Shown here one piece after another: positions 19,612-39,787 of a stretch of 60,526 nucleotides of DNA. A program made the translations under genes and the position numbers. Each line of letters opens with the position of its first letter. The stretch's first letter is position 1. The stretch is from Pseudomonadota bacterium (GTDB lineage Bacteria > Pseudomonadota > Gammaproteobacteria > Steroidobacterales > SZUA-146): the NCBI GenBank assembly GCA_039028935.1, contig JBCCHD010000022.1:1-60526 (forward strand), given 5' to 3'. The notes beneath the pieces were generated by a model, which made no database searches, was not told where the DNA came from, and worked only from the letters and a program-made list of their open reading frames with translations.

Positions 19612-19632
19612 TTCAATTGGACTCTTACAATT

Positions 19633-22068: not shown

Positions 22069-22074
22069 CTACTC

Positions 22075-23247
22075 CTAGTCGCCCATGCAATACACAGCGG
22101 ATTCAGCAAATACTTGCTTCAAGCTGTAGTTGGAGTTCTTGAATGAATTGACCATCAAGTCGATTTGATTCCGATCCTGCGTGTCGGCCGGCGCGCGGAA
22201 GCAGACATTTCGAAAAACTTTGGTTACCTGACACTGGGCAAAGGCATCGCTATTGGCCATTTCCTCGCCCAGCGACTTCGCGCCATTACCACTGCCTGGC
22301 AGGGACGCGTCCCAGCCTAGTATGGCGTTTTGTCCTTCGCGCCAATAATTTGACCAACTATCGTCGGGCGTGATGAAGCCGCGCTCAAAATTCGTTGAGT
22401 TAATGCCGTACTTCGGATCGACCACACCTTCTCGATACACCACGCGGTCGACCGTTTCGTCAAAATCGTAGTAGGCAAACGCCTGTGCGAGGGGGTCCAT
22501 GCCGCTGTGGCAGCCCAGACAGCGGTTGAGGAAGATGCGACTGTCTCCTCCCGGACTGCGCGAGACATCTTGCCGAATGCGATCCGGTGGTCGCGTGCTG
22601 TCTTTCACTTGTTCCAGATCGTTGCACATGTGATTCATGAGCGTGAAGCGGAACATGGCACGGTTGGTGCCATCGATAAAAAACGCCTGCGCTGCGGCGC
22701 GCGTTGTCATGACGCCCGCCGTGGCGTTGGCAGGCAAATCGGTGATCTGACTTTGAGTTCGTCGTTGCAGAACGCTACTCAAGTCGATGTTCTGATTTTC
22801 AAGCGCCTCGTAATGCGCATTGTCTGTCATCGAATAGGCCGGTACGCCAGCAGACGTGCCGACATACAAAATGTCGGCAGACAGGACGGTATTAAAGGGT
22901 TCATCGTCACGCACCATGCCGATCACGGTGGCGGTGTAATCGTTCAACGGCACAAAGACGGATTGATCGCGGTTGGTCCATGGCGCGGCAAAGTTCTTGA
23001 GTGTGACGTTGTAGAAGTTGGGGTTATCGATCGCGGTAAATGCCGCATTAAGGGCGTTTCCGGCCGCGATATCCGCTGCCATATCATTGAGTACCGTAGC
23101 CGTGGGTGGAACGCCAGCCAGTCTGTCGTGCAGCGTTTTTGCTTGTTCGCGTTCGCCAGCCGTCGTGGCGACGTTCATTCCAATCGCGATAAGCAATGCA
23201 CCTGCGCGCACCGAGAAACGTATTTTTTTAAGATTTGCTACAGACAT
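22075..23247 (-). CDS. DUF1588-like exported c-type haem protein
   Basis: The product is 390 residues with an N-terminal signal segment (VRAGALLIAIGMNVATTAG). The single haem site RCLGCHSGMDPLAQAF, about two thirds along, resembles the RCxxCHxxMDPLGxxL signature of DUF1588-type proteins, which occur in planctomycetes and some gammaproteobacteria beside DUF1501/DUF1552 partners. DDEPFNTVLSADILYVG and GVMTTRAAAQAFFIDGTNRAMFRF also fit that group. It is first of the three-gene minus operon, with 6 bp to the next gene. A redox or electron-transfer role in the periplasm is likely; the substrate is unknown. Confidence 0.68.
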   Translation of the reverse strand: MSVANLKKIRFSVRAGALLIAIGMNVATTAGEREQAKTLHDRLAGVPPTATVLNDMAADIAAGNALNAAFTAIDNPNFYNVTLKNFAAPWTNRDQSVFVPLNDYTATVIGMVRDDEPFNTVLSADILYVGTSAGVPAYSMTDNAHYEALENQNIDLSSVLQRRTQSQITDLPANATAGVMTTRAAAQAFFIDGTNRAMFRFTLMNHMCNDLEQVKDSTRPPDRIRQDVSRSPGGDSRIFLNRCLGCHSGMDPLAQAFAYYDFDETVDRVVYREGVVDPKYGINSTNFERGFITPDDSWSNYWREGQNAILGWDASLPGSGNGAKSLGEEMANSDAFAQCQVTKVFRNVCFRAPADTQDRNQIDLMVNSFKNSNYSLKQVFAESAVYCMGD

Positions 23248-23502: not shown

Positions 23503-23632
23503 GACTATAAAAGCGGCTGCTTCATGATGTGGAATTCCTGTGCAGCGTTTAACGCTTTTATTACAGTACTTTTAGGAACTTTGTGTAATTTTTCCAAGCG
23601 TTATGCAATATCCGCTGCAGGAATTTTGGGCG

Positions 23633-26272: not shown

Positions 26273-26275
26273 GCT

Positions 26276-27010
26276 ATGAAACGCTTTGTATCGCTATTCT
26301 TCGCTGTGTTAATGCTGGCCACGCCCGTGCAGGCAAAGTCGGACGTGAAGCTCGTGGTCGAGGAACCCTTCATTGAAATGCGCACGGGCCCCGGACGTGG
26401 CTACCCTGTCTATCATGTGGTCGAGGCGGGCGAGAACATCACCGTTACCCGTCGACGCACAGAGTGGTTCGAGGTGATTGCTCCACGCGGTCAGAAAGGT
26501 TGGGTGCATCGTGACGAGCTTGAGCTCACGCTCGATCCGGAAGGGTTTGCCGTGCGAGTCGAGGATAGCTCATTTGGCACGTACTCGAATCGCCGCTTCG
26601 AGTTCGGCGTGCTGGATGGCGAATTTGGTGGTGCGGATGTCATTTCCGTCTATGGAGCCTATGCACTTACCCCAAATCTGTCGACCGAGCTATCGGTATC
26701 CCAGGGCATCGGAACCTTCGCGGACAATGTGTTCGCGACGGCGAACGTGACACACCAATTTTTCCCTGACAAACGCATTACACCGTTCTTTACGCTCGGT
26801 GGTGGCGTTTTGCGCACGTCGCCCAACGCCACGTTGGTCGAGGTCGAAGACCGCAATGATGAAATTGCCTTTGCAGGAATGGGCCTGAGACTGTACGCCA
26901 CGCGGCGTATGGTGCTGCGGGCGGAATATAAAACGTATGTGATTTTTACAAGTCGCGATGACAACCAGGAGATCGACGAATGGAAAGCCGGCTTTTCGTT
27001 CTTTTTCTAA
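26276..27010 (+). CDS. SH3-domain outer-membrane beta-barrel protein
   Basis: The product is 244 residues with a signal peptide (LFFAVLMLATPVQA). Residues ~23-85 are a bacterial SH3 domain (FIEMRTGPGRGYPVYHVVEAGENITV, WVHRDEL), likely to contact peptidoglycan. The rest is an eight-strand-like barrel (VISVYGAYALTPNLSTELS, ITPFFTLGGGV, LRAEYKTYVIF) ending FSFFF with a terminal Phe. It resembles the outer-membrane barrel family shared by myxobacteria and gammaproteobacteria. It lies 3 bp after the HzsA-like gene and overlaps the next gene by 31 bp, so translation is probably coupled. Confidence 0.75.
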   Translation: MKRFVSLFFAVLMLATPVQAKSDVKLVVEEPFIEMRTGPGRGYPVYHVVEAGENITVTRRRTEWFEVIAPRGQKGWVHRDELELTLDPEGFAVRVEDSSFGTYSNRRFEFGVLDGEFGGADVISVYGAYALTPNLSTELSVSQGIGTFADNVFATANVTHQFFPDKRITPFFTLGGGVLRTSPNATLVEVEDRNDEIAFAGMGLRLYATRRMVLRAEYKTYVIFTSRDDNQEIDEWKAGFSFFF

Positions 27011-27660
27011 GCAAGCTGCCGCTACTCGCCCTCGGCGGGTGTCTACTGTTGCTTGGTGGCTGCAGTGTTTTCCAGCAGTCGGCCGATGAGGCGGCTGAGG
27101 AATTGCCGCCCGTCATTGATCCGGAAGTGGAGCGACGCGACATCAAGGTGCCCAAAATCGACTCGGAGAACTTTGAGGTGGGCCTTTATGGCGGCCTCAT
27201 GAGTATTGAGGATTTTGGTTCAGATAGCGTGGTGGGAGCGCGCGTCGCGTTTCACGCGACCGAAGACTTCTTTTTGGAGGCGGTCTACGCGCAAACACAG
27301 GCTGGAAGGACCAGCTTTGAAGAATTAAGTGGCGCGGTTGAGCTGCTCACACCCGAGGAGCGCGACTACACCTACTACAACCTATCGTTGGGTTACAACG
27401 TGTTGCCTGGAGAGGCCTTCTTGGGGCAAAGCTGGGCGTTCAATACTGCGCTATATGCGATTGCGGGCGTTGGAAGCACCGAATTTGCCGGTGACGATCG
27501 GTTCACAATCAATGCGGGTTTTGGCTATCGAGTCATTCTCAATGACTTTCTGGCGCTGCACCTCGATGTGCGGGATCACCTCTTCGATATCGACTTGCTC
27601 GGCGAAGAAAAGACTACCCACAACATTGAATATCACTTTGGTTTTACGATCTTTTTTTGA
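26980..27660 (+). CDS. Outer-membrane beta-barrel lipoprotein, paralogous to its neighbour
   Basis: The product is 226 residues with AGGAG 8 bases before the ATG. A lipoprotein signal ends LLLLGGCSVF. A short acidic linker (DEAAEELPPVIDPEVE) leads to a barrel domain (FEVGLYGGLMSIEDFGS...YNLSLGYNVLPGEAFLG...TINAGFGYRVILNDFLALHLDVRDH) ending FGFTIFF. Strand pattern and ending are similar to the preceding SH3-barrel protein, suggesting two barrels in one outer-membrane complex. The 31-bp overlap with the upstream gene is unusually long. Confidence 0.72.
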   Translation: MESRLFVLFLSKLPLLALGGCLLLLGGCSVFQQSADEAAEELPPVIDPEVERRDIKVPKIDSENFEVGLYGGLMSIEDFGSDSVVGARVAFHATEDFFLEAVYAQTQAGRTSFEELSGAVELLTPEERDYTYYNLSLGYNVLPGEAFLGQSWAFNTALYAIAGVGSTEFAGDDRFTINAGFGYRVILNDFLALHLDVRDHLFDIDLLGEEKTTHNIEYHFGFTIFF

Positions 27661-27671
27661 GGAATATATCG

Positions 27672-28172
27672 ATGAAAAGGACTGCAATTATCGTTGCTGT
27701 GATGAGCCTGTTGATGGGCGTGAGCGCCTGGTCGGCGAAATCATCGCTCATGCAAAAGTCAGCACCCGACTTTACGCTCAAGAGTCTTGAGGGTCCAAAT
27801 GTGAAGCTCAGCGAGCTTCGGGGTGATGTCGTGCTGATCAACTTTTGGGCGTCTTGGTGCGGACCGTGTCGCCAAGAAATGCCACTGCTTGAGGAACTCA
27901 GCACGCAATACGCACCGATGGGCTTCACCATGCTGGGTGTCAACGTGGAAGAGGACAGCTCGGCCGCCAAAGCCATGCTCGACGAGCTTGGCGTGAGTTT
28001 CCCCATTTTGTTTGATAACGAAAATTCGGTGAGCGAAAGCTACGACGTGATCGCTATGCCGACCACGGTGGTCGTCGATCGTGACGGTAAGGTGCAGTAT
28101 GTGCACCACGGCTATAAACCGGGTGACGAAGGGAAATATCAAGACGCCATCCGACGAGCGATCCGCCAATGA
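27672..28172 (+). CDS. TlpA/ResA-like thiol-disulfide oxidoreductase
   Basis: The product is 166 residues from the ATG at 27672, preceded by GAGGAA. A signal peptide (IIVAVMSLLMGVSAWSA) exports it. The thioredoxin fold shows WASWCGPCRQEMP with Cys63 and Cys66 and the later cis-Pro in VIAMPTTVVVDRDG. This class reduces periplasmic disulfides, often to ready CxxCH apocytochromes for haem attachment. That fits the five CxxCH motifs encoded nearby. The stop overlaps the DUF4266 start (ATGA, 28169-28172). Confidence 0.88.
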   Translation: MKRTAIIVAVMSLLMGVSAWSAKSSLMQKSAPDFTLKSLEGPNVKLSELRGDVVLINFWASWCGPCRQEMPLLEELSTQYAPMGFTMLGVNVEEDSSAAKAMLDELGVSFPILFDNENSVSESYDVIAMPTTVVVDRDGKVQYVHHGYKPGDEGKYQDAIRRAIRQ

Positions 28173-28399
28173 GAACGGCCGCTCTGTTATTGGCAATGGC
28201 GGTGCTCGGTAGTTCGGGTTGTGCCTCGGTGGAGGTGGAGCCCTGGGTTAAGCCCTATGAACGGGCGAACTTAGCCGATCCCATTATGTCTTTTGATCGC
28301 GATCCACTCGCGGCCTCTTATCTGCAACACGTATTCGAATCGCGTGAAGGCGCCCGCGGTGCCGCTGGTGGTGCCCACGGTGGCTGTGGTTGTAACTAA
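28169..28399 (+). CDS. DUF4266 small lipoprotein
   Basis: The product is 76 residues. The lipoprotein signal ends LGSSGCASVE. The conserved DUF4266 core follows: PWVKPYERANLADPIMSFDRDPLAASYLQHVFESREG. The tail is Gly/Ala/His-rich and ends HGGCGCN; this Cys pair at the extreme C-terminus could bind metal or accept a thiol modification. Its role is unknown. It is translationally coupled to tlpA and followed by DUF3570 and apbE, a set that I recall as recurring together. Confidence 0.85.
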   Translation: MRTAALLLAMAVLGSSGCASVEVEPWVKPYERANLADPIMSFDRDPLAASYLQHVFESREGARGAAGGAHGGCGCN

Positions 28400-28417
28400 T
28401 TTAACAAGCGTGAACGC

Positions 28418-29554
28418 ATGAACGACTTACAATTTAAGCGGTGGCTTATTCTTTTTATGTGGGGCGTGATGGCATCGCCCTTCGCGGCGACCCTGCCTGA
28501 GGATCGCACCGATATTCTCTATCACGGTTATGAGGGTGGTGGTGCCGATATCGATGGCCCGGCGATCGTGGTCCGCAAGTCATTTGGCGATAAAGTGTCA
28601 CTGAGTGGCAAGTACTATGTGGACAGCGTCAGCAGCGCATCGGTCGATGTAGTGACCACGGCGAGTCCGTATACCGAAGAACGCACCGAAACCAGTTTCG
28701 GTGCAAGTTACCTGTATGACGCCACGCAATTTAGCCTCAACGTAACAAACAGTGATGAAAACGATTTTCAGGCGAGTTCGTACTTCTTTTCGATCAGTCA
28801 AGAAATGTTCGGCGCGCTCACGACGGTGTCGCTAGGCTATGGCCGCGGAGACGACACAGTGGGTCGCAACGGCGATGCCGATTTCACCGACGAGGTCGAT
28901 CGCCAGCACTATCAACTTGGCCTTACCCAAGTATTGACGAAAAATTGGATTGCGAGCCTCGACTATGAGGCCATCACAGACGAGGGGTATCTCAATAACC
29001 CGTATCGATCGGTCCGGTTCTTAGATGGTTCCGCGCGCGGATACGCGTATGAAAGTGAGATCTATCCGCGCACACGTACAAGCAACTCGGTGTCCCTGAA
29101 GTCGCGGTACTTCCTCAAGTATGGCGCAGCGCTGACGTTCGATTATCGTTTTTTCTCCGACACTTGGGATATACAAGGTCACACAGCTGGTATTGGCTAC
29201 GTGCATAAATTTGGCGATGACTGGACATTCGAAGTTGGCTATCGCTTCCATACGCAAACCCAAGCCGAGTTTTACAGTGATTTGTTTGAGCGACCCCAGG
29301 CACAGAATTTTCTTGCGCGCGACAAAGAGTTGAGTTCTTTTTCCGATCACATGGGCCGAGTGGGCGTTACCTATGCGTTTCCGAGCAAGATTCTCCCGTT
29401 TGTTGATCGGGGTACAGCCAATTTGTATTTCAACCGCTTCCGATTTGATTACGACAATTTTCGCGATCTCACCGTCGACGCTCCAGTCGGCGAAGAGCCA
29501 TTGTATGGCTTTGACGCGAACGTGATTCAGTTTTATTTGTCGTTCTGGTACTGA
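28418..29554 (+). CDS. DUF3570 outer-membrane protein
   Basis: The product is 378 residues with a signal peptide (LILFMWGVMASPFAA). The conserved start DILYHGYEGGGADIDGPAIVVRKSFG and VSLSGKYYVDSVSSASVDVVTTASPYTEER match DUF3570. Throughout, 8-12 residue amphipathic strands alternate (FSLNVTNSDEN, LTTVSLGYGRGDD, AALTFDYRFFSD, TFEVGYRFHTQ). The last residues, FYLSFWY, form an aromatic barrel end, so this is probably a 14-16-stranded porin-like barrel. It sits between DUF4266 and apbE, 18 and 14 bp away. Function is unknown. Confidence 0.85.
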   Translation: MNDLQFKRWLILFMWGVMASPFAATLPEDRTDILYHGYEGGGADIDGPAIVVRKSFGDKVSLSGKYYVDSVSSASVDVVTTASPYTEERTETSFGASYLYDATQFSLNVTNSDENDFQASSYFFSISQEMFGALTTVSLGYGRGDDTVGRNGDADFTDEVDRQHYQLGLTQVLTKNWIASLDYEAITDEGYLNNPYRSVRFLDGSARGYAYESEIYPRTRTSNSVSLKSRYFLKYGAALTFDYRFFSDTWDIQGHTAGIGYVHKFGDDWTFEVGYRFHTQTQAEFYSDLFERPQAQNFLARDKELSSFSDHMGRVGVTYAFPSKILPFVDRGTANLYFNRFRFDYDNFRDLTVDAPVGEEPLYGFDANVIQFYLSFWY

Positions 29555-29568
29555 CCCGGAGACCATCA

Positions 29569-30546
29569 ATGACCCGAATAATTATTGCTGCCGCGTTGAT
29601 GCTGTCTGTGTCGTGGCCTCTGTCTGTATCCGCCGAGTGGTATGGACGCACGGAGGGCATCATGGGCACCGAAATCAGCGTTCAGCTTTGGCATGAGAAC
29701 GAAGCGTATGCGATGGCGAGTATCGACCGGGTGATCGGCGAAATGCATCGCATCGATCATTTGATGAGCACCTATAAAGACCATAGCGAAATCTCACAGA
29801 TAAATGCCAACGCGCATGAGCAAGCGGTGGCGGTGAGCGACGAACTGTTCGAACTCATTAAGCAGGCGCTGGATTTAGGTCACGTAACGCGTGGCGCATT
29901 CGATATCACTTATGCAAGCGTTGGAAAGCATTACGATTTTCGCACCGGAGAAAAGCCCTCTGACGCACAAAAACAAACGGCGGTTGAGGTCGTTAATCTC
30001 GATAATGTGGTGTTGAACACATCCCAAAAAACGGTGCGGTTTCTGCGTGAAGGTGTGCGGATTGATTTGGGCGGAATAGCCAAGGGGCATGCCGTAGAAA
30101 GCGCGGTGACGTTGCTGCGCGAACGCGGTATTGAAAATGCCATTGTGACAGCGGGCGGAGACAGTCGCGTGTTAGGGGACCATCGCGGGCGCCCTTGGGC
30201 AGTTGGAATTCGCGATCCCAGGCAGCGCAACGGCATCGCGGCGCGTATGCCGGTGCAAGAGGAAGCGATTTCGACGTCTGGCGATTATGAGCGCTATTTT
30301 GAAGCGGATGGCGTTCGCTATCACCATATCATTGAGCCAACCTCTGGCGATTCTGCGCGGACCGTGCGCAGCGTCACCATCATAGGCCCGAATGCCATTA
30401 TGACCGACGCACTGTCGACAGGTGTATTCGTACTCGGCAAGCAGCGAGGACTGGCGCTAATCGACTCACTTGAAGAATTTGAAGCCATTGTTATTGACCA
30501 GCAAGGGGAGATGCATTTCTCCCGTGGTCTTGAGCCTGACGCGTAG
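29569..30546 (+). CDS. apbE: FAD:protein FMN transferase
   Basis: The product is 325 residues with a signal peptide (IIIAAALMLSVSWPLSVSA), so it acts in the periplasm. ApbE motifs are GIMGTEISVQ, DITYASVGKHYDF, DLGGIAKGHAVE, TAGGDSRVLGD and the metal/FAD-binding HHIIEPTSG, with DALSTGVFVLG near the end. It uses FAD to attach FMN to a Thr/Ser in a target motif (D-x-x-[ST]-G-A-[ST]-like). I saw no unambiguous FMN-acceptor motif in the neighbouring proteins, so its client is not identified here. A CCGGAG Shine-Dalgarno precedes the ATG. Confidence 0.93.
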   Translation: MTRIIIAAALMLSVSWPLSVSAEWYGRTEGIMGTEISVQLWHENEAYAMASIDRVIGEMHRIDHLMSTYKDHSEISQINANAHEQAVAVSDELFELIKQALDLGHVTRGAFDITYASVGKHYDFRTGEKPSDAQKQTAVEVVNLDNVVLNTSQKTVRFLREGVRIDLGGIAKGHAVESAVTLLRERGIENAIVTAGGDSRVLGDHRGRPWAVGIRDPRQRNGIAARMPVQEEAISTSGDYERYFEADGVRYHHIIEPTSGDSARTVRSVTIIGPNAIMTDALSTGVFVLGKQRGLALIDSLEEFEAIVIDQQGEMHFSRGLEPDA

Positions 30547-30566
30547 TTGTTGGGATGGGAAATCTT

Positions 30567-31094
30567 ATGAAAACGAAGAAACTGTCTGTATGCCTCACCG
30601 CAATAGGTTGTCTGGCGATGGTGGCCCACGCTGAAGAACGCACGTCGTTTACCAATCTCGACGGCGAAGTACAAAACCTCAAAAAAGAGCTGATGAGTCT
30701 GAATCGAGATTTATTTATCCTCGAAGAGGAGTTGTTGTTTCCAGCGAACACGCAGGTGTCGGTTTTTGTTTCGATGGATGTTGGCGAGTACTTTGCGCTG
30801 GATTCGGTTGAGCTAAAACTCAATGGAAAGAAGGTGTCTAGCTACCTGTATACGGAGCGCGAAGCAGAGGCGTTGCTTCGAGGCGGCGTGCAGCGGCTGT
30901 TTGTGGGCAACCTCAAAGCAGGCGACCATGAGCTAGTGGCGGTGTTTACCGGTATGGGTCCCAATAATCGCGAGTATCGTCGCGGCGCTACGCTCGAGTT
31001 TGAAAAAACGCTTAGCCCGAAATTTGTCGAACTTAAGATCGAAGATCAAACGCGCAACATGCAGCCCGAATTCGCCGTGCGAGAGTGGGATTAA
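30567..31094 (+). CDS. Exported protein of unknown function at the head of the motor cluster
   Basis: The product is 175 residues from the ATG at 30567; a second ATG four codons upstream is possible. A signal peptide (LSVCLTAIGCLAMVAHA) precedes a helical heptad segment (FTNLDGEVQNLKKELMSLNRDLFILEEELLF) that looks like a short coiled coil. A beta-rich domain follows (VSVFVSMDVGEYFALDSVELKLNGKKVSSYLY, GDHELVAVFTGMG). No named family is recognised. Tight linkage to the TPR and ExbBD genes suggests a periplasmic component of the same assembly. Confidence 0.65.
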   Translation: MKTKKLSVCLTAIGCLAMVAHAEERTSFTNLDGEVQNLKKELMSLNRDLFILEEELLFPANTQVSVFVSMDVGEYFALDSVELKLNGKKVSSYLYTEREAEALLRGGVQRLFVGNLKAGDHELVAVFTGMGPNNREYRRGATLEFEKTLSPKFVELKIEDQTRNMQPEFAVREWD

Positions 31095-31102
31095 GTCCTT
31101 TT

Positions 31103-33100
31103 ATGAGGCACTCATCGCTCCATTTACCGCTGCGTGATCGGTCCCGTCATCGCCTGTACTCGAAGGGTGCAGAATGGCTCAAGTGGATCAAACTTTGCAG
31201 TTTGTTGGTGTTGGGGTTTGTACTGCTGATTGCAGCATCTCCAAATGTAACGGCCGCTGAGCCCGTTAAAGACTTAAGCTACGGTGATGCGCTGTTCGAA
31301 TTTTATCGGGGTGACTACTTTGGTTCGGCGACAAAGCTCTTGGTGGCCAAGCAGCAGCAAACACTCGAGCACCATCGCGATGACGCGGAGCTGTTGCTCG
31401 GTGGACTCTATCTGTCCTACGGTCAACAAGATCAGGCCGCGACCGTGTTTGAAGCGCTGCTCGATAAGGCTGAACCGAATGTTCGAGATCGGGCTTGGCT
31501 CTACTTGGCGGAAATTGCTTGGCAGCGGGGCAACAACGTGCGCGCCAAAATGGCCCTCGACGGAATGGGAGATAAACTCGACGATGAGTTTGTCGCGCGC
31601 AAACAATTGCTTGAATCGCGTATTGCCATTGATGAAGAGCGTTTCGACGATGCCATTACGCTATTGGAAGAATGGCAGGGCGGCGATCAACTCGCGGCCT
31701 ATGCGCAATTCAATCTCGGCGTGGCGATGGTGCGCCATGGCAATGTCGATGAGGGCAGTCGACAGTTAGCACGAATCGGGAAGGGCAAGATTCGTCCACC
31801 CGGCTCATCGATTTTCCGTCTTCCCGAGCGCTGGCGTTTCTGGTCCGCGGGAAGTCGCAAATCGGTCGAAAAACATAGTGAACACCAGGCGCTGCAAGAC
31901 AAAGCGAATCTAGCCTTGGGTTTCGCGCAGCTTCAAAAAGAAAATGCGGCGCAGGCTGGCGAGTATTTGCGGCGCGTGAGTAGCGCGAGTGCACTCAATT
32001 CAAAGGCGCGCCTCGGCGCCGGATGGGCGGCGGTCGAGCTCGGAAATTACACCACGGCACTCGGACATTGGAACCGTCTCAAAGGCGAAGATCGCCTTGA
32101 TCCGGCCGTTCAAGAGGCGTTGCTGGCCATACCGTTCGCGCATCGCCGATTAGGCAAAGATCAGCAGGCGATCAGTGAATATCATCAAGCGATTTCGCAG
32201 TTTGAGAGCGAAATCGAGCATCTTAATTCGTTTCAGCAAAGCTTGGACCACGGTGATTTTCTCAACGCACTGCTGGCGGACGACACCGCCGGCAAAGTGG
32301 GTTGGTTTTGGCGCTTGAAAACCGTGCCGGATTCTCCGCAATCCCGCTATCTTTATCATTTGGTTGCCGATCATGCGTTTCAAGAAGGTCTCAAGAATTA
32401 TCGCGACGTGCTGTATCTCAAGGAAAACTTGCTGGAATGGAAAAACAACCTGGGCGCCTTCCACACAATTGTCAATGCACAACGCGATCGATATACCGAG
32501 CAAATGAACCGCCAGCCTGGCGAAGGCCTGGACGGACAGCTACAGACGCTCACTGCGCGTGTGGCGTCGGCGCGTACAGAATTGAATCGCATTCAGCGAG
32601 CTAACGACGTAGTGGCGCTCGCGACGGAAGAAGAAATGACTACTTGGGCGCGACTAAAAGCGGTTGAGCAGAAACTGGCCGGTCTCGATTCGCGCGCCGA
32701 TGAGGCGCGCCGCAAACACGCGTTCTTAAAAGGTGTTATGCAGTGGAATTTGTCGCAGGCCTACCCGGCGCGTGCTTGGGAAAAAACCAAGCAGATACGC
32801 GCACTCGAGGAACAATTGTCATTGGGACAGGAACGGCTCGCCCGTTTGGATTTGGCGAAGACGCTATCGCCAGAGCGCTTTGATGGATTCGATCGGCGAA
32901 TCGAGCTGGCTGTGCCTCGGATCGACCATCTACTCACGCAGGCCGATAGAGCGTTAGGCGCGCATCAAGCGTATCTTGCGGGACTCGCCGGCGAACAATT
33001 TGATGCGCACCGTCAACGCTTAACCGCTTACCTAACCGAAGCGCAATTCGCGCTCGCCAGCGCATACGATCAGTCTGCGCTCGCACAGGAGGGACCATGA
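31103..33100 (+). CDS. Large periplasmic TPR protein (Glt/Agl-like cluster)
   Basis: The product is about 665 residues from the ATG at 31103; a GTG at 31085 inside the preceding gene is the alternative. An N-terminal hydrophobic segment (LCSLLVLGFVLLIAASP) gives export or anchoring. TPR-like helix pairs run from ~60 to 400 (AELLLGGLYLSYGQQDQAATVFEALLD, AYAQFNLGVAMVRHGNVDEGSRQL, LGAGWAAVELGNYTTALGHWNRL). After about residue 430 the protein is long coiled coil (VASARTELNRIQRAND, LKAVEQKLAGLDSRADEARR). It resembles the TPR components encoded beside AglQRS-type motors. It ends with an ATGA overlap into the next TPR gene. Confidence 0.68.
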   Translation: MRHSSLHLPLRDRSRHRLYSKGAEWLKWIKLCSLLVLGFVLLIAASPNVTAAEPVKDLSYGDALFEFYRGDYFGSATKLLVAKQQQTLEHHRDDAELLLGGLYLSYGQQDQAATVFEALLDKAEPNVRDRAWLYLAEIAWQRGNNVRAKMALDGMGDKLDDEFVARKQLLESRIAIDEERFDDAITLLEEWQGGDQLAAYAQFNLGVAMVRHGNVDEGSRQLARIGKGKIRPPGSSIFRLPERWRFWSAGSRKSVEKHSEHQALQDKANLALGFAQLQKENAAQAGEYLRRVSSASALNSKARLGAGWAAVELGNYTTALGHWNRLKGEDRLDPAVQEALLAIPFAHRRLGKDQQAISEYHQAISQFESEIEHLNSFQQSLDHGDFLNALLADDTAGKVGWFWRLKTVPDSPQSRYLYHLVADHAFQEGLKNYRDVLYLKENLLEWKNNLGAFHTIVNAQRDRYTEQMNRQPGEGLDGQLQTLTARVASARTELNRIQRANDVVALATEEEMTTWARLKAVEQKLAGLDSRADEARRKHAFLKGVMQWNLSQAYPARAWEKTKQIRALEEQLSLGQERLARLDLAKTLSPERFDGFDRRIELAVPRIDHLLTQADRALGAHQAYLAGLAGEQFDAHRQRLTAYLTEAQFALASAYDQSALAQEGP

Positions 33101-35925
33101 CGCCCTTCCGTTCTTTGCTCGTTCTTTCGTTGCTGATCATGCTGATGCCGCTCAGTGCGGCGCAGTCCGATGAGGATGCCTCGGCGAGCCCGGCGCGAAT
33201 GACGGTGGATGCCAAAGCCCGCGCGCGGGCGAGCTATGAGGCGTTTTTGGCGCTTGCCGCGCTCGATGACCCACGCCGGCCGGGCGCTTTGCGCCGACTC
33301 GCGGACATGGAGCTCGAACAGGCGGAGAGCCTATTGATTGACGGCGCGCATGACGAGCAGGCCAAAGGTCTTTATGAGCAGGCCATTCGTTTATATCGTG
33401 ATTTGTTGTCTCAGTATCCAGGCCACGATGGTAACGATGCCGTCTATTATCAGCTGGCGCGCGCGCAAGAGGCAGTGGGTGATATGGATGCGGCGCGCGA
33501 CACGCTGTCGCAACTCGTAAAAGAACAGCCTGAGTCAACGTATGCCGAAGAGAGTGAGTTTCGGCGCGGCGAGACATTGTTCTCACAGGGGAATTATGAG
33601 CGCGCGGCAGAGGCCTATGCGGCGGTCATCCGACGCAGTGGCGAGGGCAGTCAGGGCGCGTTTCTTGAGCAGTCTTGGTACAAACACGGTTGGTCGCTGT
33701 TCAAGCTTGCGGACTACCCTGAAGCGCAAAGTGCTTTTTTGAATTTGTTGCGTCACCAGCTGCTCGCGCAGGGGGACTATCAACGCGACGCTATTAATGG
33801 CCTGTCGCCCGGCGGGCGCGAGATGTTGCTCGATGCATTACGGGCAATGAGTCTCTCATTCGCGTATGGCGAAGGCGTAGCCGATCTCAATGCGTTGCTC
33901 GACCGCGATACGGCACCTGGTTTCGAACATCTACTGTTTACGGATCTCGGCGAGCTGTATCGCAAGGAAGAGCGCTATCAAGACGCGGCCGCCGCCTATC
34001 GGGCGTTTGTCGCGCGACTCCCCAATGCGCGTCACGCTCCGCATATGCAGCTTGCCGTAATCGATACCTACCGTGATGCGGGTTTTTTCGAGCAAGAGAT
34101 GAGTGCGAAAGAAGCGTTTGCACAAGAGTATGCGCTGAATCGCGGCGGTGATGATTATTGGTCCCAGCATGCGATTGATGACTCCGACGATATTGTGGCC
34201 GCACTAAAACTCCACTTGACCGAACTCACTCAGTTTTATCATGCCGGTGCGCAAACACTTAAATCAGCCCCATACACTACCGAACGCGACGCGGCCTATG
34301 ATAAGGCGGTGCACTGGTATCGCGCATGGCTGAGTTCCTTCCCCGCAATCGACGAAACACCGGAAACGCACTTTTTGCTGGCTGAACTGCTGTTCGATCA
34401 AGGTGAATTTGAGGCAGCGGTTATCGAGTATGAAGCCACTGCCTATGGGTACGAGGCGCACACGCGATCGGCTGAGGCTGGCTACGCGGCGTTGTTGGCT
34501 TACGCGAAACAGGAAGGCCAGATCGACGATCCACAAACGCGCTGGAACGTAGAGCGCGCGTCAATCGATAGCTCGCTCAAGTTTGCGGATTCGTTTAGCG
34601 AGCATGCCGAGGCCACACGCGTGCAAACCGACGCCACCGAGCGACTGTATGCCCGTGGCGATCTCAATGATGCGTTAGCCGCAGCCAACGACTTGCTGGC
34701 CTGGCAGCCTCCGGCTGCCCTTGAAGAGCAGCGTATTGCCCTTCTTGTCGCGGGCAATACACACTTTGATCAAGATAATTTCAGTGGCGCCGAAGCCGCA
34801 TTCAGTCGCACGCTGGCACTCAATGTCGAGGGTGGTGCGGATGCCGCTTCCCGTCAGGATGTGGTTGAGCTGCTGGCGGCCTCGGTGTATCGGCAAGCCG
34901 AAGCGGAACAACAAAACGGTGAACTCGCTGACGCGGCTGAGCACTTTTTGCGGGTCGCTCGGGTAGCGCCTACCAGCTCGCTGATCGCCACCGCCGAATA
35001 CGAGGCGGCGTCAGTGTTGATGGACGTCAAAGATTTCACGCGGGCGGCAAGTGTACTGCAGGCCTTCCGAACCAACTATCCGGATCACGAACTGCAGCGT
35101 GATGTCACACGAAACTTGTCGGTGAGCTATCTTGAATCGGGTAATAAAGAAGGGGCGGCCAGTGAACTTATGCGGCTGGCGCGGGATCCGCTCAATGACA
35201 GCGACACGCGATTGTCGGCCAACTACCAAGCCATCGATATTTATCGTGAAAGCAACGATCCCAGTCAATTACTCGAGAGTTATGTTTACTTGATCGAGGC
35301 TCAGCCGCTGTCGGTCGATGAAAGCATCGATGCTCGTGAGGAGATTGCCGGCGTTTATCAAAAAATGGGCAATGAGTCGCAATATTTAGATTGGGTTAGG
35401 TCGATCATAGAGGTTGATAAGGCGGCCGGCTCGAACGCCACGCCACGCAGCCGTACTGCCGCAGCACGCGCGACACTTATGTTCGCGAAACAGGCTTGGC
35501 AGCCGTTTGCCGACGTGCGACTTGAAGAGCCACTGCAGGACAATCTGAGGCTCAAAAAGTCGCGCATGGAAACCCTGCTTAGTCAGTTAGGCGTCGCCAG
35601 TGGCTACAACATTGCGGATGTGACGACGGCAGCCACTTATCAGATGGCCGCGGCTTATGCCGAGATGGCGGATGCGCTGATGACCTCGGAACGACCGGGC
35701 GGACTCAACGCCGATGAATTGGAACAGTACGAATTCTTGCTCGAAGAGCAGGCTTTTCCATTTGAAGAGCAGGCTATCGAGATACATGAGACCAATATTA
35801 ACCGCATTGAAGACGGTTTATATGACGCCTGGATGCGACAGAGCTTCAAAGCGTTGGCGGAACTGATGCCGGGTCGATACCAGAAAACAGAGAAGGGAGT
35901 CACCGTTGCTGAACTCAATCCCTAA
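33097..35925 (+). CDS. Very large exported TPR protein
   Basis: The product is 942 residues with a signal peptide (LLVLSLLIMLMPLSAAQS). Tandem TPR repeats cover most of it, for example AKGLYEQAIRLYRDLLSQYPGHDGNDAVYYQLARAQEAVGD, FLLAELLFDQGEFEAAVIEYEA and ASVLMDVKDFTRAASVLQAF. They form a right-handed solenoid suited to binding peptidoglycan-layer or outer-membrane partners. It overlaps the previous gene by ATGA and has GGAGGG upstream. It matches in size and composition the large periplasmic TPR subunits of Glt-type envelope complexes; a one-to-one assignment is not possible by eye. Confidence 0.7.
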   Translation: MTPFRSLLVLSLLIMLMPLSAAQSDEDASASPARMTVDAKARARASYEAFLALAALDDPRRPGALRRLADMELEQAESLLIDGAHDEQAKGLYEQAIRLYRDLLSQYPGHDGNDAVYYQLARAQEAVGDMDAARDTLSQLVKEQPESTYAEESEFRRGETLFSQGNYERAAEAYAAVIRRSGEGSQGAFLEQSWYKHGWSLFKLADYPEAQSAFLNLLRHQLLAQGDYQRDAINGLSPGGREMLLDALRAMSLSFAYGEGVADLNALLDRDTAPGFEHLLFTDLGELYRKEERYQDAAAAYRAFVARLPNARHAPHMQLAVIDTYRDAGFFEQEMSAKEAFAQEYALNRGGDDYWSQHAIDDSDDIVAALKLHLTELTQFYHAGAQTLKSAPYTTERDAAYDKAVHWYRAWLSSFPAIDETPETHFLLAELLFDQGEFEAAVIEYEATAYGYEAHTRSAEAGYAALLAYAKQEGQIDDPQTRWNVERASIDSSLKFADSFSEHAEATRVQTDATERLYARGDLNDALAAANDLLAWQPPAALEEQRIALLVAGNTHFDQDNFSGAEAAFSRTLALNVEGGADAASRQDVVELLAASVYRQAEAEQQNGELADAAEHFLRVARVAPTSSLIATAEYEAASVLMDVKDFTRAASVLQAFRTNYPDHELQRDVTRNLSVSYLESGNKEGAASELMRLARDPLNDSDTRLSANYQAIDIYRESNDPSQLLESYVYLIEAQPLSVDESIDAREEIAGVYQKMGNESQYLDWVRSIIEVDKAAGSNATPRSRTAAARATLMFAKQAWQPFADVRLEEPLQDNLRLKKSRMETLLSQLGVASGYNIADVTTAATYQMAAAYAEMADALMTSERPGGLNADELEQYEFLLEEQAFPFEEQAIEIHETNINRIEDGLYDAWMRQSFKALAELMPGRYQKTEKGVTVAELNP

Positions 35926-36526
35926 GCACCGCCGATTGGTCGGCGTGATGGTCGCATCACTGTGGCTGGGCGCCTGTGCAGGCACCGGTCCGGTTGCGAA
36001 GAAAACGGCGCCGTTGTCAGAGAGTGTCGATCCAACGTCGACCCTCTATTCCGATCAAAAACCGGCTGCGCCGGATGCTGCTGATGTCATCGCCCTACTC
36101 GAGAAACAGGTGGCGAGTGCGCCGGGTCAAGCAGAAGGCTATCTGCGGCTGGGTGTCGCCTATCGCCACATTGAACAGTTTGATCTGGCGGCACAGATGT
36201 TTGAGCAAGCGGCCGCGCTCAGCGAAACACCGTTTGTGGCGCGCAATGAGCTCGGCATTTTGCATCGCGTAAAGGGCGAGTTCAAAGAGGCCGAAGCTGT
36301 TTACCAACGCATTTTGGCCGATGCACCTGATTTTCACGATGCACACTTTAACTTGGGCATTCTTTATGACTTGTATTTGCGCCAGCCGCGCGCGGCACAA
36401 AAGCACTACCAAGCGTACATTCAGGCGGCGCCTGAAGCCGACGAACGGGTAGAGAAATGGTTGGTTGACCTAGAGCGCCGACATCAGATTGACGCCAGTG
36501 CGTCGGCGGGAGTGGTTGGTGATTAA
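35906..36526 (+). CDS. TPR lipoprotein
   Basis: The product is 206 residues from a TTG start with AAGGGAG 7 bases upstream, overlapping the 942-residue TPR gene by 20 bp. The lipoprotein signal ends LWLGACAGT. Three TPR units follow (AEGYLRLGVAYRHIEQFDLAAQMFEQAAAL, VARNELGILHRVKGEFKEAEAVYQRILAD, DAHFNLGILYDLYLRQPRAAQKHYQAYIQ). TPR lipoproteins of this type pilot or brace outer-membrane parts of trans-envelope complexes (PilF-like in architecture). A role as the outer-membrane-side adaptor of the motor complex is inferred. Confidence 0.75.
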   Translation: MLNSIPKHRRLVGVMVASLWLGACAGTGPVAKKTAPLSESVDPTSTLYSDQKPAAPDAADVIALLEKQVASAPGQAEGYLRLGVAYRHIEQFDLAAQMFEQAAALSETPFVARNELGILHRVKGEFKEAEAVYQRILADAPDFHDAHFNLGILYDLYLRQPRAAQKHYQAYIQAAPEADERVEKWLVDLERRHQIDASASAGVVGD

Positions 36527-36917
36527 TCCCCTGCTGCGGGCGCTGTGTGTGCGTCTAATGCGATGGACGACGTTAGCGGCGACTGGCTGTCTACTGCTGA
36601 CGCCGGCGATGGCGCAGGACGCAGCAGAGTCCGAGACAGCAGAAGAGATTCGTCCGCTGTCGGCCAATAACACCTCAGAAGCACGCTCCAGCATTCAACT
36701 GAAGACGACGTCTGTGACGGGCAGTCGCGAGTTACCCAAAGTGCTTGTGATTGTGCCTTGGAAAACGTCCGAGGCGATTGGGCCCGGCGAGCGCCCGCTG
36801 TCGAGCCTGGTAGAGGACGCACTGACTCCGGTCGATCCTGACGTGTTTCGTCGGCAGCTTGACTATTACACCGATTTGAAAGAAGCCGCGGCCGAAAGCC
36901 GCGGTGATGCTCAATAA
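36519..36917 (+). CDS. Exported small protein of the motor cluster
   Basis: The product is about 132 residues from a GTG at 36519 with GGGAG 6 bases upstream; an ATG at 36489 would overlap the TPR gene more deeply. A signal peptide is clear (RWTTLAATGCLLLTPAMAQ). The mature chain is low-complexity and acidic at first, then has ELPKVLVIVPWKTSEAIGPGERPLSSLVEDALTPVDPDVFRRQLDYY. I do not recognise a family, but the position between the TPR lipoprotein and the ExbB-like gene suggests a periplasmic linker in the same complex. Confidence 0.6.
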   Translation: MINPLLRALCVRLMRWTTLAATGCLLLTPAMAQDAAESETAEEIRPLSANNTSEARSSIQLKTTSVTGSRELPKVLVIVPWKTSEAIGPGERPLSSLVEDALTPVDPDVFRRQLDYYTDLKEAAAESRGDAQ

Positions 36918-36945
36918 CCACGACCATACTGACGAGGAGAGTAAC

Positions 36946-37593
36946 GTGGACGCTTACAACACAATTGTCCGGTTTTTTCAGGACGGGGGTTTGTTTATGT
37001 ACCCCATCATGCTGGTGCTTGGCATCGGTCTAGCCATCGCAATTGAGCGCTGGTTTTACTTGTCGGCCAGCAAGACCCGAAACCGCATGATCTGGAAAAA
37101 ACTGTCGCCGCTTTTGAAAAAAGGTGGCTATAAAGAAGCCGCGAACATCACGAGTCAGTCGAAGTCGGCGATTGCGACGATTCTCTCGTACGGTTTCGCT
37201 CGCATTGAAACGGCGCGTCGTCGCGACGACATCGAAAAAGCCATGGAAGAGAGTCTCATGGAAGTGATGCCACGCCTAGAAAAGCGCACGCACTACCTGG
37301 CCACATTTGCCAACATTGCAACGTTGCTGGGTTTGCTCGGTACCATTATCGGTCTAATCCGCGCGTTTACCGCGGTGGCCGCCGCCAACCCCGCAGAAAA
37401 AGCCGACTTGTTGTCCGCGAGTATTTCGGTGGCGATGAACACGACCGCGTTTGGCTTGATGGCAGCCATTCCACTACTTCTCATGCACTCTGTCCTCACC
37501 ACCAAAACCACTGAGCTTGTCGACAGTCTGGAGATGGTGTCCGTGAAGTTTCTCAATAGCGTATCGGAACCTCGTGGTAAGCAGGTAGCCTGA
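36946..37593 (+). CDS. MotA/TolQ/ExbB-family proton channel protein
   Basis: The product is 215 residues from the GTG at 36946, which has GAGGAG 7-8 bases upstream; a GTG/ATG at 36904-36907 in the previous gene is less likely. Three membrane helices are visible: MYPIMLVLGIGLAIAIE, ANIATLLGLLGTIIGLIRAF and ISVAMNTTAFGLMAAIPLLL. The LLGTIIGL and MNTTAFGLMAAIP motifs carry the Thr residues of the proton path. This is the stator-like inner-membrane subunit that pairs with the two ExbD-like proteins encoded next (TGATG overlap at 37593). It is AglR/TolQ-like in context. Confidence 0.9.
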   Translation: MDAYNTIVRFFQDGGLFMYPIMLVLGIGLAIAIERWFYLSASKTRNRMIWKKLSPLLKKGGYKEAANITSQSKSAIATILSYGFARIETARRRDDIEKAMEESLMEVMPRLEKRTHYLATFANIATLLGLLGTIIGLIRAFTAVAAANPAEKADLLSASISVAMNTTAFGLMAAIPLLLMHSVLTTKTTELVDSLEMVSVKFLNSVSEPRGKQVA

Positions 37594-38132
37594 TGAACTC
37601 ACGTCGCTGGCGTCGTCGCCATAATACGGAAACCGCCGAACTCAACATTACGGCCTTTATGAATCTTATGGTGATTCTAGTGCCTTTTTTGTTGATTACC
37701 GCCGTGTTTTCGCGGCTTACCATTCTGGAGCTGACCTTACCTGGTCCAGGTGACGGCGCGACCGATGCAGACACACCTTCCCTGCAGCTGGAAGTCATTT
37801 TGCGTGCAACAGGGGTTGAAGTGGCCGACACGAAAACCGGACTGCTCAAGGTGCTGCCAAAACGTGACAATCAGTCTATGTACGATCTCAATGCACTCAG
37901 CGATTACCTCAAGCAAGTGAAAGCCAATTATCCGGACATTACCGCCGCGACGATTCTGCTGGAGCCGGATATCGACTACAACACGCTGGTTCAGGTGATG
38001 GACACCGTGCGTGTGTACTCAGCCCCTGGGCTTGTGATGACGCCTGCTGAACTCTTTCCGGATATATCGATCGGTGATGCAACGGTTGCGCCGTTAAGTG
38101 CACCGGTCGCCAGTCTTGAGGGAGGTCAATAA
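37593..38132 (+). CDS. ExbD/TolR-like protein lacking the membrane Asp
   Basis: The product is 179 residues with one N-terminal membrane helix and a periplasmic ExbD domain. In ExbD/TolR the helix begins TPFIDVML, with an essential protonatable Asp. Here the same place reads TAFMNLMVILV, with Asn24 (codon AAT at 37662-37664). The rest of the domain looks intact (LNALSDYLKQVKANYPDITAATILLEPDIDYNTLVQVMDTVR). It may act as the structural, non-protonated partner in a heteromer with the ExbD at 38134. It starts on the stop of the ExbB-like gene. Confidence 0.85.
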   Translation: MNSRRWRRRHNTETAELNITAFMNLMVILVPFLLITAVFSRLTILELTLPGPGDGATDADTPSLQLEVILRATGVEVADTKTGLLKVLPKRDNQSMYDLNALSDYLKQVKANYPDITAATILLEPDIDYNTLVQVMDTVRVYSAPGLVMTPAELFPDISIGDATVAPLSAPVASLEGGQ

Positions 38133-38133
38133 T

Positions 38134-38646
38134 ATGTCCATGTCCCGTCGCGCTGTGCGCATGGAGCGTAAGCACAAGAAATCGAAGATGCCGAGCCTGA
38201 ACCTCGTCTCGCTCATGGACATCTTTACGATTCTCGTGTTTTTCTTGCTCGTGAATTCCTCTGATGTGGAAACGCTTCAAGCCAATAAAGGCGTGCAGTT
38301 GCCGGAATCGGTTGCGGAGCAGAAGCCCCGTGAAAACGTGGTTGTGATGATCACCGCCACCGATATTTTGGTTCAGGGCGAGCCCACCATATCGCTGTCG
38401 GCCGTCACTTCTCGTGACGACACGCTGATTCCGGAGCTTAAGAACAAACTTCAGATTCAGGTCGACAAACTCATCGCTGAGGCGGGTGAGGATGAGCGAG
38501 CCAATCGAGAAGTCACAATCATGGGTGACAAAAGCGTGCCGTACAGCGTGCTCAAAAAAGTCATGGCAACGTGTACCGATGCGGATTATGGGCGGTTGTC
38601 GCTTGCCGTGATGCAGCGAGGCGCTCCCGACGGGGGCGAGTCCTGA
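38134..38646 (+). CDS. ExbD/TolR-like protein with the conserved membrane Asp
   Basis: The product is 170 residues from the ATG at 38134, with GGGAGG 8 bases upstream. A basic cytoplasmic N-terminus (RRAVRMERKHKKSK) precedes one membrane helix reading LVSLMDIFTILVFFLLV, with Asp29 at the ExbD catalytic position. The periplasmic domain follows (NVVVMITATDILVQGEPTI, VTIMGDKSVPYSVLKKVMATC). It is the probable proton-conducting partner of the neighbouring ExbD that lacks this Asp. The stop TGA overlaps the ATG of a 36-codon ORF. Confidence 0.88.
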   Translation: MSMSRRAVRMERKHKKSKMPSLNLVSLMDIFTILVFFLLVNSSDVETLQANKGVQLPESVAEQKPRENVVVMITATDILVQGEPTISLSAVTSRDDTLIPELKNKLQIQVDKLIAEAGEDERANREVTIMGDKSVPYSVLKKVMATCTDADYGRLSLAVMQRGAPDGGES

Positions 38647-38756
38647 TGGAGTCTGTATTGATTGCGCTGACCGTGGTGCTCTTCACCGCTCATTTTCGCG
38701 ACACACCGCGACGCCAGAAACTACCCGTGCGCGTGCATAGGAGAGGCCAGCCGTGA
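38646..38756 (+). CDS. Possible 36-residue membrane micropeptide
   Basis: An ATG overlaps the ExbD stop (TGATG) and the frame's TGA overlaps the GTG of the AgmX-like gene (GTGA at 38753-38756). The peptide has a short hydrophobic stretch (SVLIALTVVLFTAHF) and a basic tail (RRQKLPVRVHRRGQ). It could be a real micropeptide of the motor complex, or a coupling device whose translation delivers ribosomes to the AGGAGAGG site inside its 3' end. No family is recognised. Confidence 0.4.
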   Translation: MESVLIALTVVLFTAHFRDTPRRQKLPVRVHRRGQP

Positions 38757-39787
38757 GCGTAACTGCCAACATATTCTCAATGCGCGATCCAAACTATCGA
38801 CGCTATGACCTGCCGTGGACGCGCGAAGCGGAAGAACACACGCGACTGCGAAAAATCACGACGGGTGTCATGGGCACACTACTGGTGCTGTCCGTTGTTA
38901 TTCCGTTCTTACCGGTGAGTGATATCGAGCGAAACGCCGCTACCGATATTCCCCCGCGCTTAGCCAAGCTCGTGATCGAAAAGAAAGAGCCTCCTCCACC
39001 ACCACCGCCAAAAGAACCTGAGGTGATAAAAGAGGAAGTGGCTAAACCCAAACCCGAACCCAAACCCGAGCCGCCACCCGAGGTGAAGCCTCCCCCCCGT
39101 GTTGCAAAGGTGATCACGCCGCCTAAGCCTGAGCCGAAGCCAGTCGAGCCTGAGCCAACCCGCCAAGAGGTGGTGGAAAAAGCACGCGAGAAGGCGAAAA
39201 CCGTGGGGTTGATGGCCGTCGCAGACGATCTGGCCGACCTACGTCAGAACAGTGCGGTGCAAAATACCAGCGGTCGCAATCTGTCCGCATCGGTGTCGGA
39301 TGGGGATGTGACACAACGTTCGCTCATCACGAGCAAGAGCAGCACGCGAAGTGCGGGCGTGAAAACGGCTAACCTCAGTCGCAGCACCGGTGGTGGCGGG
39401 CTGGCTGGCCGAACCACGACCGCCGTGGCCGCCCCGGTCTACGCCACAGCAACAGGCCCGACCGGATCGGCGTCAGGTGGTCAGTCCGATTATGCTGGGC
39501 AGCGAAGTCAAGAAGAAATTGAGACTATTTTTGATAAGAACAAAGCGGCCATTTACGCGCTGTACCGTCGCGCTCTTCGCAAAGACCCGACGCTGCAAGG
39601 CAAGCTCGTTTTAGAGCTAACGATCGCGCCTTCTGGGAAAGTGGTCAGCGTCTCGGTGGTGTCATCGGAACTGGGTTCGGATGACTTTGAAAAGAACCTT
39701 CTCCGCCGGGTCAAGATGTTCGATTTTGGTGCCCAGGATGTGGATGAGGTGACGACCACTAAACCGATTGATTTTTTCCCAGCGTAA
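38753..39787 (+). CDS. AgmX/PglI C-terminal domain protein (TonB-like)
   Basis: The product is 344 residues from a GTG start with AGGAGAGG upstream. A cytoplasmic N-terminus is followed by one membrane helix (GVMGTLLVLSVVIPFLPVSD, ~38-58). A long Pro/Lys/Glu-rich spacer (EPPPPPPPKEPEV and Lys-Pro-Glu repeats, ~78-135) could span the periplasm. The C-terminal ~90 residues are the AgmX/PglI domain (SQEEIETIFDKNKAAIYALYRRALRKDP...GKLVLELTIAPSGKVVSVSVVSS), similar in layout to TonB. In Myxococcus, AgmX and PglI are parts of the AglQRS-powered gliding complex. It is the last gene of the cluster. Confidence 0.88.
   Translation: MSVTANIFSMRDPNYRRYDLPWTREAEEHTRLRKITTGVMGTLLVLSVVIPFLPVSDIERNAATDIPPRLAKLVIEKKEPPPPPPPKEPEVIKEEVAKPKPEPKPEPPPEVKPPPRVAKVITPPKPEPKPVEPEPTRQEVVEKAREKAKTVGLMAVADDLADLRQNSAVQNTSGRNLSASVSDGDVTQRSLITSKSSTRSAGVKTANLSRSTGGGGLAGRTTTAVAAPVYATATGPTGSASGGQSDYAGQRSQEEIETIFDKNKAAIYALYRRALRKDPTLQGKLVLELTIAPSGKVVSVSVVSSELGSDDFEKNLLRRVKMFDFGAQDVDEVTTTKPIDFFPA

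Follow-up and report, generated by a model that had tools for sequence, protein, structure and literature searches.

A tightly packed run of 16 plus-strand genes was analyzed in a 60,526 nt stretch of DNA from a gammaproteobacterium of the order Steroidobacterales (contig JBCCHD010000022.1 of assembly GCA_039028935.1; the whole stretch is called the window hereafter). The run occupies positions 23603-39787 and three exported genes divergent from it are located at 18019-23247. The parts recognized by sequence are an ExbB/ExbD1/ExbD2 channel, a TonB-like linker, tetratricopeptide repeat (TPR) and other exported proteins and small outer-membrane barrels, together with haem lipoproteins and a cassette for flavinylation. 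The motor core and the redox and haem parts are inherited as a unit, and this union is the new element. With a little more confidence than doubt, the run is read here as encoding a proton-driven trans-envelope machine dedicated to an outer-membrane flavin/haem assembly.

Judged by its architecture and by weak GltJ and GltG matches under the cut-offs, the core complex appears to be a relative of the Agl/Glt core. It is described as a relative rather than as a gliding machine because the GltE, GltG and GltJ models all stayed below their cut-offs and the TPR matches are generic; in this respect the likeness to the gliding machine of Myxococcus drawn in an earlier first-pass annotation of the window was not supported.

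Co-inheritance of the motor core with redox and haem genes

The distribution of the genes was determined in a class-level sample of 232 genomes (at least 90% complete). A match to X179, an exported protein described below, was taken as the marker of the core, and the barrel family TIGR04565 was searched at a threshold of E <= 1e-15. X179 was found in 49, DUF4266 in 56, HZS_alpha in 34 and the barrel in 35 of these genomes. All 35 barrel genomes and 32 of the 34 HZS_alpha genomes have the core, with odds ratios of infinity and 170, respectively; the link is looser for DUF4266 (38 of 56 genomes, odds ratio 32). For a NiFe-hydrogenase control, the odds ratio with the core was 1.9 (p 0.08). The core, DUF4266, HZS_alpha and the barrel occur all together in 30 genomes. 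When one genome per family was counted (144 genomes, G059-G199 being taken as one per family from the handle order), the barrel was accompanied by the core in 25 of 25 cases. The core and DUF4266 are on the same contig in 27 of 38 genomes, at a distance of up to 3 kb in 19 and of 10-29 kb in the other 8, and the core and HZS_alpha in 25 of 32 genomes, 4.6-25.7 kb apart.

For the order to which the window belongs, 59 genomes were analyzed. Among the 37 genomes that have X179, two types of it were distinguished, a close one (type 1; 35 genomes) and a distant one (type 2; 11 genomes), with both types in 9 genomes. Type 2 was separated from type 1 by its identity (35-41%), and G056 was counted as type 1 on two fragments. 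The genomes in which the TIGR04565 barrel exceeds its cut-off are identical with the 35 that have the type 1 core. DUF4266 was found in 34 genomes, 33 of which have type 1; two genomes have type 1 only, one has DUF4266 only and 23 have neither. One of the exceptions, G011, carries a DUF3570 gene (L057, 14569-15867) whose N-terminus resembles DUF4266, a possible fusion judged by eye.

A total of 40 loci was fetched from these genomes (29 type 1 and 11 type 2), five type 1 genomes besides the window's own being left out. The core genes present keep one order in all 40 loci, which speaks against a chance arrangement, and the complete nine-gene core was found in 35. Of the other five, L038 and L077 are truncated by the end of a contig, and L045, L057 and L066 are without one gene at the 25-bit threshold. 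All 29 type 1 loci have a redox or haem gene next to the core, in some of them only TlpA and/or ApbE, compared with none of the 11 type 2 loci, three of which have less than 0.8 kb of upstream sequence. The barrel match and the kept gene order, on which the first-pass annotation had made its reading depend, were both found.

In addition, 80 named loci were inspected, which are the best 80 of at least 535 confirmed relatives. These loci favour type 1, since they were chosen by likeness to the window's X179, and their genomes (L078-L157) overlap with those of L038-L077, so that counts over both sets are not independent. Their titles name gammaproteobacteria, unspecified proteobacteria and a few others, e.g., Betaproteobacteria and Burkholderiales. 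At least one redox or haem gene lies beside the core in 74 of the 80 loci. The commonest neighbour is a TlpA-like gene directly upstream of the core (53 loci); HZS and the exported protein P530 (33 each), DUF3570 (26) and OMP2 (24) are also found there. The remaining six loci include four that begin at the end of a contig and have no upstream sequence. A whole-genome search of six named genomes detected HZS_alpha and DUF4266 in all six, also where these are apart from the core. Among the six are three isolates, Steroidobacter agaridevorans SA29-B, Peristeroidobacter agariperforans KA5-B and Steroidobacter gossypii S1-65, in which the core locus shows only TlpA.

A tree of the core was calculated with FastTree from X179, the 942 aa TPR protein, ExbB and the AgmX-type TonB-like protein (89 loci and the window, 1626 columns, midpoint root). 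From 94 complete loci 89 were kept; loci without one of the four proteins and exact duplicates were excluded. In a clade of 63 tips, which includes the window (support 0.96), every locus has a redox or haem neighbour, and in a clade of 14 tips (support 1.0) no such neighbour was detected in the stretches covered. Free and linked loci are mixed among the other 13 tips, which are weakly resolved. The loci scored as free have approximately 8.4 kb of upstream sequence, except for L072, L073 and L076 (less than 0.8 kb) and L191 (1.6 kb), and L178, also scored as free, has a weak match to a divergent TlpA (35 bits). From this clade pattern it follows that the core diversified and that the redox module is tied to a single large branch of it.

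Some further genes recur around the cores of relatives. M48 peptidase, Ysc84, LemA, WD40 and MFS/acyltransferase genes are found near cores with only ApbE and TlpA; they were not met among the window frames scanned and were taken as local synteny, not as parts of the module. Downstream of the type 2 cores L066-L076 a conserved protein (u2) is encoded in 10 of 11 loci, and its 531 aa copy in L075 has a weak DUF11 match below the cut-off. In L056 and L059 the usual cassette upstream of the core is replaced by genes for ApbE, a beta-lactamase-family protein, an extracytoplasmic function (ECF) sigma factor and a TonB-dependent receptor.

Gene products of the run

Neighbouring reading frames of the run mostly overlap by 1-38 nt or sit a few bases apart, according to the predicted start codons, and the largest gap within the run is 106 nt, 5' of the TonB-like gene. 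The genes named in the first-pass annotation, their order and the frequent overlaps are in agreement with the coordinates and domain matches. The run had been described there as starting at 26276. The genes from this position on are as given, whereas the true start is at 23603, where the gene for a haem lipoprotein with an HZS_alpha domain (23603-26272) begins, which stops 3 nt short of the gene for the SH3 barrel. The gene list was also right as far as it went; it omitted an exported protein of 142 aa (X142, 36489-36917, with a conserved ELPKVLYIVPWK-like motif) in the interval between the TPR lipoprotein and ExbB. No ends of the unit were drawn from a promoter and terminator scan, which gave 4 promoter-like sites (shuffle mean 10.5) and 27 terminator-like sites (shuffle mean 20.0).

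The motor half, encoded on the plus strand throughout, begins with the core marker X179 (30555-31094), which is exported and combines a helix with a transthyretin-like beta-sandwich. The fold was considered as a clue to its function, with a best Z of 9.0 over 95 residues; no function is drawn from it because many unrelated proteins score within 1 of this value. TPR matches were obtained for a protein of 671 aa (31085-33100) with the position and size of GltC, for a protein of 942 aa (33097-35925) at the GltD position and for a lipoprotein (35906-36526) at the GltE position. The ExbB/TolQ/AglR-like channel protein (36904-37593; MotA_ExbB, 102.1 bits) is followed by ExbD1 (37593-38132; ExbD, 56.6 bits), ExbD2 (38098-38646; ExbD, 67.4 bits) and the TonB-like protein (38753-39787).

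The TonB-like protein consists of a single hydrophobic stretch close to the N-terminus, a Pro/Lys spacer and an AgmX/PglI C-terminal domain. It exceeds the cut-off of the AgmX/PglI model NF033768 (65.9 bits versus 40) and, barely, that of tonB_Cterm (TIGR01352; 27.7 versus 27.1 bits), and it is below that of Pfam TonB_C (23.1 versus 24.6 bits). Its scores for GltJ (48.0 bits, cut-off 450) and GltG (30.7 bits, cut-off 650) are both under the cut-offs, as are those of two TPR proteins for GltE (32.4 and 21.7 bits, cut-off 225). No match of the TonB-like protein to solved structures was found at E <= 1. The 942 aa TPR protein exceeds the cut-off of the YbgF/CpoB TPR model TIGR02795 (99.4 versus 90.1 bits), in a match that spans about 100 of its 942 residues.

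The run shares the ExbB/TolQ and ExbD/TolR families, the YbgF TPR model and, by a narrow margin only, the tonB_Cterm model with the TonB-ExbBD and Tol-Pal systems, whereas the equivalog cut-offs for TolQ, ExbB, TolR, ExbD and TolA were not reached by its proteins. The scores for Tol-Pal proteins were 68.8 of 221 bits (TolQ), 30.8 of 127.3 bits (TolR) and 16.0 of 343.15 bits (TolB). No Pal model was among the matches listed for the run, and of the Tol-Pal models only the YbgF TPR model was passed.

ExbD1 has an asparagine (Asn24) where ExbD, TolR and AglQ have the membrane aspartate, which is retained in ExbD2. With the window left out, this position is Asn in 60 and Asp in 28 of 88 unique ExbD1 sequences and Asp in 88 of 88 unique ExbD2 sequences. 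Such an asymmetry would fit a heterodimer with one obligatory proton carrier. For Myxococcus, the Asp is predicted in AglQ as well as in AglS according to a review (PMC9389320), which left open whether the two form heterodimers; the pattern found here bears on this question.

The Agl/Glt core was described by Luciano et al. (2011; PMC3169522) as gltC, D, E and G together with aglR, Q and S in one locus, with gammaproteobacteria, one betaproteobacterium and Geobacter among its hosts. The likeness of the window to this core comprises large TPR proteins, a TPR lipoprotein, one ExbB, two ExbD, a protein with an AgmX/PglI tail and extra exported genes, in the same content and clustering, with 671 aa for the TPR protein compared to 673 for GltC. 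By comparison with Table 1 of PMC3169522, the gene set belongs to the Agl/Glt core on architecture, and the make-up assigned to the second half of the run in the first-pass annotation was borne out. Its statement that such clusters occur outside gliding bacteria with ill-defined functions also agrees with PMC3169522, according to which the gammaproteobacterial core is of unknown function, its genes are insufficient for motility and gltA, B, H and K are confined to Myxococcales and Bdellovibrionales. Compared with that core, the window adds TIGR04565 barrels, a flavinylation cassette and haem lipoproteins; redox genes are not mentioned in the available part of PMC3169522.

Two small outer-membrane barrels are encoded upstream of the cassette on the plus strand, OMP1 (26276-27010) with an SH3 domain and OMP2 (26980-27660) with a lipobox and a linker before the barrel that carries the conserved motif V-x-RR-I...IDTEDFE. 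They had been called two similar barrels; OMP2 exceeds the TIGR04565 (OMP_myx_plus) cut-off (164 versus 60 bits), whereas OMP1 remains below it (32.5 bits).

The cassette (27657-30546, plus strand) comprises a TlpA/ResA-like thioredoxin-fold protein with the motif WASWCGPC (27657-28172), a DUF4266 lipoprotein with a C-terminal CGCN (CxC) motif (28169-28399; 78.7 bits), DUF3570, a predicted outer-membrane barrel (28418-29554; 131.6 bits), and the flavin transferase ApbE (29569-30546; 275 bits). DUF3570, DUF4266, a thioredoxin-like protein and ApbE are likewise found together in the clusters of Meheust et al. (2021; PMC8238504), where DUF3570 of Chlorobium is flavinylated by ApbE at two [S/T]GA[S/T] motifs. 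The window differs in that the motif glycine is replaced and that the cassette is joined to a proton motor, none being mentioned in the available part of that paper. A search of the window's DUF3570 for two [S/T]GA[S/T] motifs found SSAS and TTAS instead, within the flavinylation-like motifs DSVSSAS and DVVTTAS. For comparison, the motif is given as D-x-x-[S/T]-G-A-[S/T] in a 2025 review on ApbE (PMC12052999). An alignment of 17 rows showed no variation at the Asp and the Ala, and either Ser or Thr at the final position.

The AlphaFold2 model of DUF3570 is a barrel of 16 long strands (predicted local distance difference test, pLDDT, 81.4; predicted template modelling score, pTM, 0.77). In Foldseek comparisons it resembled PelB, AlgE, OpdK and FadL, with template modelling (TM) scores of up to 0.50. 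Counting strands from a periplasmic N-terminus, the loop with the motif (74-83) and the three longest other loops would face the outside.

The haem lipoprotein at the start of the run (23603-26272, plus strand) consists of a PD40 propeller, an HZS_alpha middle domain and two CxxCH sites. The middle domain matches the alpha subunit of hydrazine synthase (5c2v, 6.7e-06; PF18582, 56.2 bits). Hydrazine synthase as such was rejected, as the score for the alpha-subunit equivalog NF052339 was 52.7 of 800 bits and one domain only is in common. On the minus strand, P530 (18019-19611) has a Tat-type signal (RREFLAQGF) and no match in Pfam (E 0.001) or NCBIfam (E 0.01). It is adjoined by a lipoprotein (19633-22068) in which a Laminin_G_3 (LamG) domain is combined with two CxxCH haem sites, and by an exported protein with one CxxCH (22075-23247) that matches PSD2/DUF1585 weakly (19.0 bits, cut-off 25.8). 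These three divergent genes recur beside the core in other loci, the latter two in 31 and 25 of the 80 named loci, respectively.

Proposed mechanism and alternative readings

The mechanism is proposed by analogy with the Agl-Glt machinery of Myxococcus xanthus, for which a cyclic contact of a TonBC-domain protein with outer-membrane barrels, driven by the proton-motive force, has been put forward (PMC5349195). Agl-Glt and the Nfs sporulation machine of this species have the motor type, the TonB-like linker and barrels as proposed partners in common with the window. They differ from it in that no FHA domain was found on the TonB-like protein of the window in profile scans and, for Agl-Glt, in the failed Glt models.

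Proton flow through ExbB-ExbD would drive the TonB-like protein, the C-terminal domain of which would pull on periplasmic parts of the outer-membrane set, with the conserved linker of OMP2 as a candidate contact. The TPR and other exported proteins can bridge the periplasm. ApbE would attach flavin mononucleotide (FMN) to DUF3570 in the periplasm, before insertion of DUF3570 into the membrane, and TlpA and DUF4266 may handle thiols or electrons. DUF3570 would then display FMN on the outer side of the barrel, next to the lipid-anchored haem proteins, which could be electron partners or the load of the motor. The force would install, position or switch (operate) the redox assembly. The first-pass annotation had the machine perhaps placing these haem lipoproteins; the link to them is strengthened by the co-occurrence, whereas their placing is inferred.

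A more far-reaching version, which is considered unlikely, is a motorised extracellular redox organelle, in which an Agl/Glt-type motor moves or cycles an outer-membrane complex with covalent FMN on its outer face and with surface haem proteins. If so, the cell would use proton-motive force to deploy, by mechanical means, a platform for electron transfer or oxidation on its surface.

Several observations weigh against a machine dedicated to a flavin/haem assembly. Co-inheritance falls short of proof of one machine, and the p-values are too small because the genomes are related. The NiFe-hydrogenase control occurs in more genomes (119 of 232) than the markers do, and it shows a weak association of its own with HZS (odds ratio 2.2, p 0.04). 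The barrel is missing from 14 of the 49 core genomes, two HZS_alpha genomes (G115 and G235) are without X179, and X179 is absent from 18 of the 56 genomes with DUF4266, from which it follows that the flavin cassette can exist alone. Many close-type loci have only TlpA and/or ApbE adjoining the core, and the named loci L100 and L130 have more than 9 kb of upstream sequence and no redox or haem gene. The motif glycine of DUF3570 is present in 3 of 17 rows for the first and in 1 of 17 for the second motif, and in another protein flavinylation was reduced when the Gly was replaced by Ala (PMC12052999); for these reasons flavinylation of DUF3570 is regarded as putative here. The outer placement of the motif loop rests on strand parity and is an inference, since its pLDDT is under 50. 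Finally, no DsbD was found among the proteins of the run, with no search aimed at DsbD or another electron donor.

The free cassettes could also mean that an Agl/Glt-like machine and a separate redox cassette are two independent systems of a common habitat that travel together, which we regard as rather unlikely. X179 without DUF4266 was found in 11 of 49 genomes, and the modules are apart from each other in several genomes. However, the co-occurrence holds whether the modules are apart or together, three of those 11 genomes (G011, G109 and G229) do have the barrel and DUF3570, and the modules are repeatedly neighbours, across many families and in two layouts. The association of barrel and core (35 of 35 class genomes, an exact match across the 59 order genomes) and the control, which is unlinked to the core at p < 0.05, also argue against two systems.

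The presence of ExbB, ExbD and a C-terminal domain just over the tonB_Cterm cut-off would suit a TonB-type importer, in which the motor opens the barrel for substrate uptake and the redox proteins then process the substrate, and the DUF3570 model resembles substrate-specific porins as well as exporters. This explanation is considered improbable: no Plug or TonB_dep_Rec match was obtained among the 16 proteins of the run, and the TonB-like protein is under the Pfam TonB_C cut-off and clearly over that of the AgmX/PglI model. An operon that encodes several TPR proteins together with two ExbD is, moreover, not known to be typical of TonB systems.

Another reading is an Nfs-like machine by which a surface polymer is secured or moved, the redox proteins being enzymes that modify the coat. 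It is suggested by Nfs being the closest Glt relative with a non-motility function and by the resemblance of the DUF3570 model to the polysaccharide exporters PelB and AlgE. A LamG domain, as in the divergent lipoprotein, can bind sugar. The barrel similarity is generic, however, and no polysaccharide synthesis enzyme was found among the proteins of the run; this reading is regarded as very improbable. A surface-motility (gliding) motor as in Myxococcus, to which the run is similar in its AglRQS and GltC, D, E and G composition, was rejected as a classification and is the least credible of all, as the GltE, GltG and GltJ equivalog models are far under their cut-offs.

Place among described systems and further genes of the window

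No paper joining the Agl/Glt core with DUF3570/ApbE or with HZS-type proteins was found in searches of the open-licence PMC literature, which is not proof of absence, and no description of a motor coupled to a surface redox platform was found in the same literature. Within it, both halves of the run are of known kinds, and no account of their close union, of the core-tied barrel family or of the haem module was encountered. The core complex is regarded as the ancestor of the machines for gliding and sporulation in Myxococcus, and its function outside them was unknown in 2011. The link described here names partners of the core in a large gammaproteobacterial clade and gives a testable redox hypothesis. 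It would unite in one machine haem proteins and a barrel family whose uses are unknown, and provides a lead on what an Agl/Glt-type machine may do in many gammaproteobacteria. The cassette-free sister clade and the type 2 core offer a natural contrast for function.

Two further genes of the window were noted. At 6137-8404 an HMG-CoA reductase domain and GHMP kinase domains are encoded in a single reading frame, so that enzymes of the mevalonate pathway are fused, and at 56039-58732 a hybrid sensor kinase with TPR repeats is encoded.

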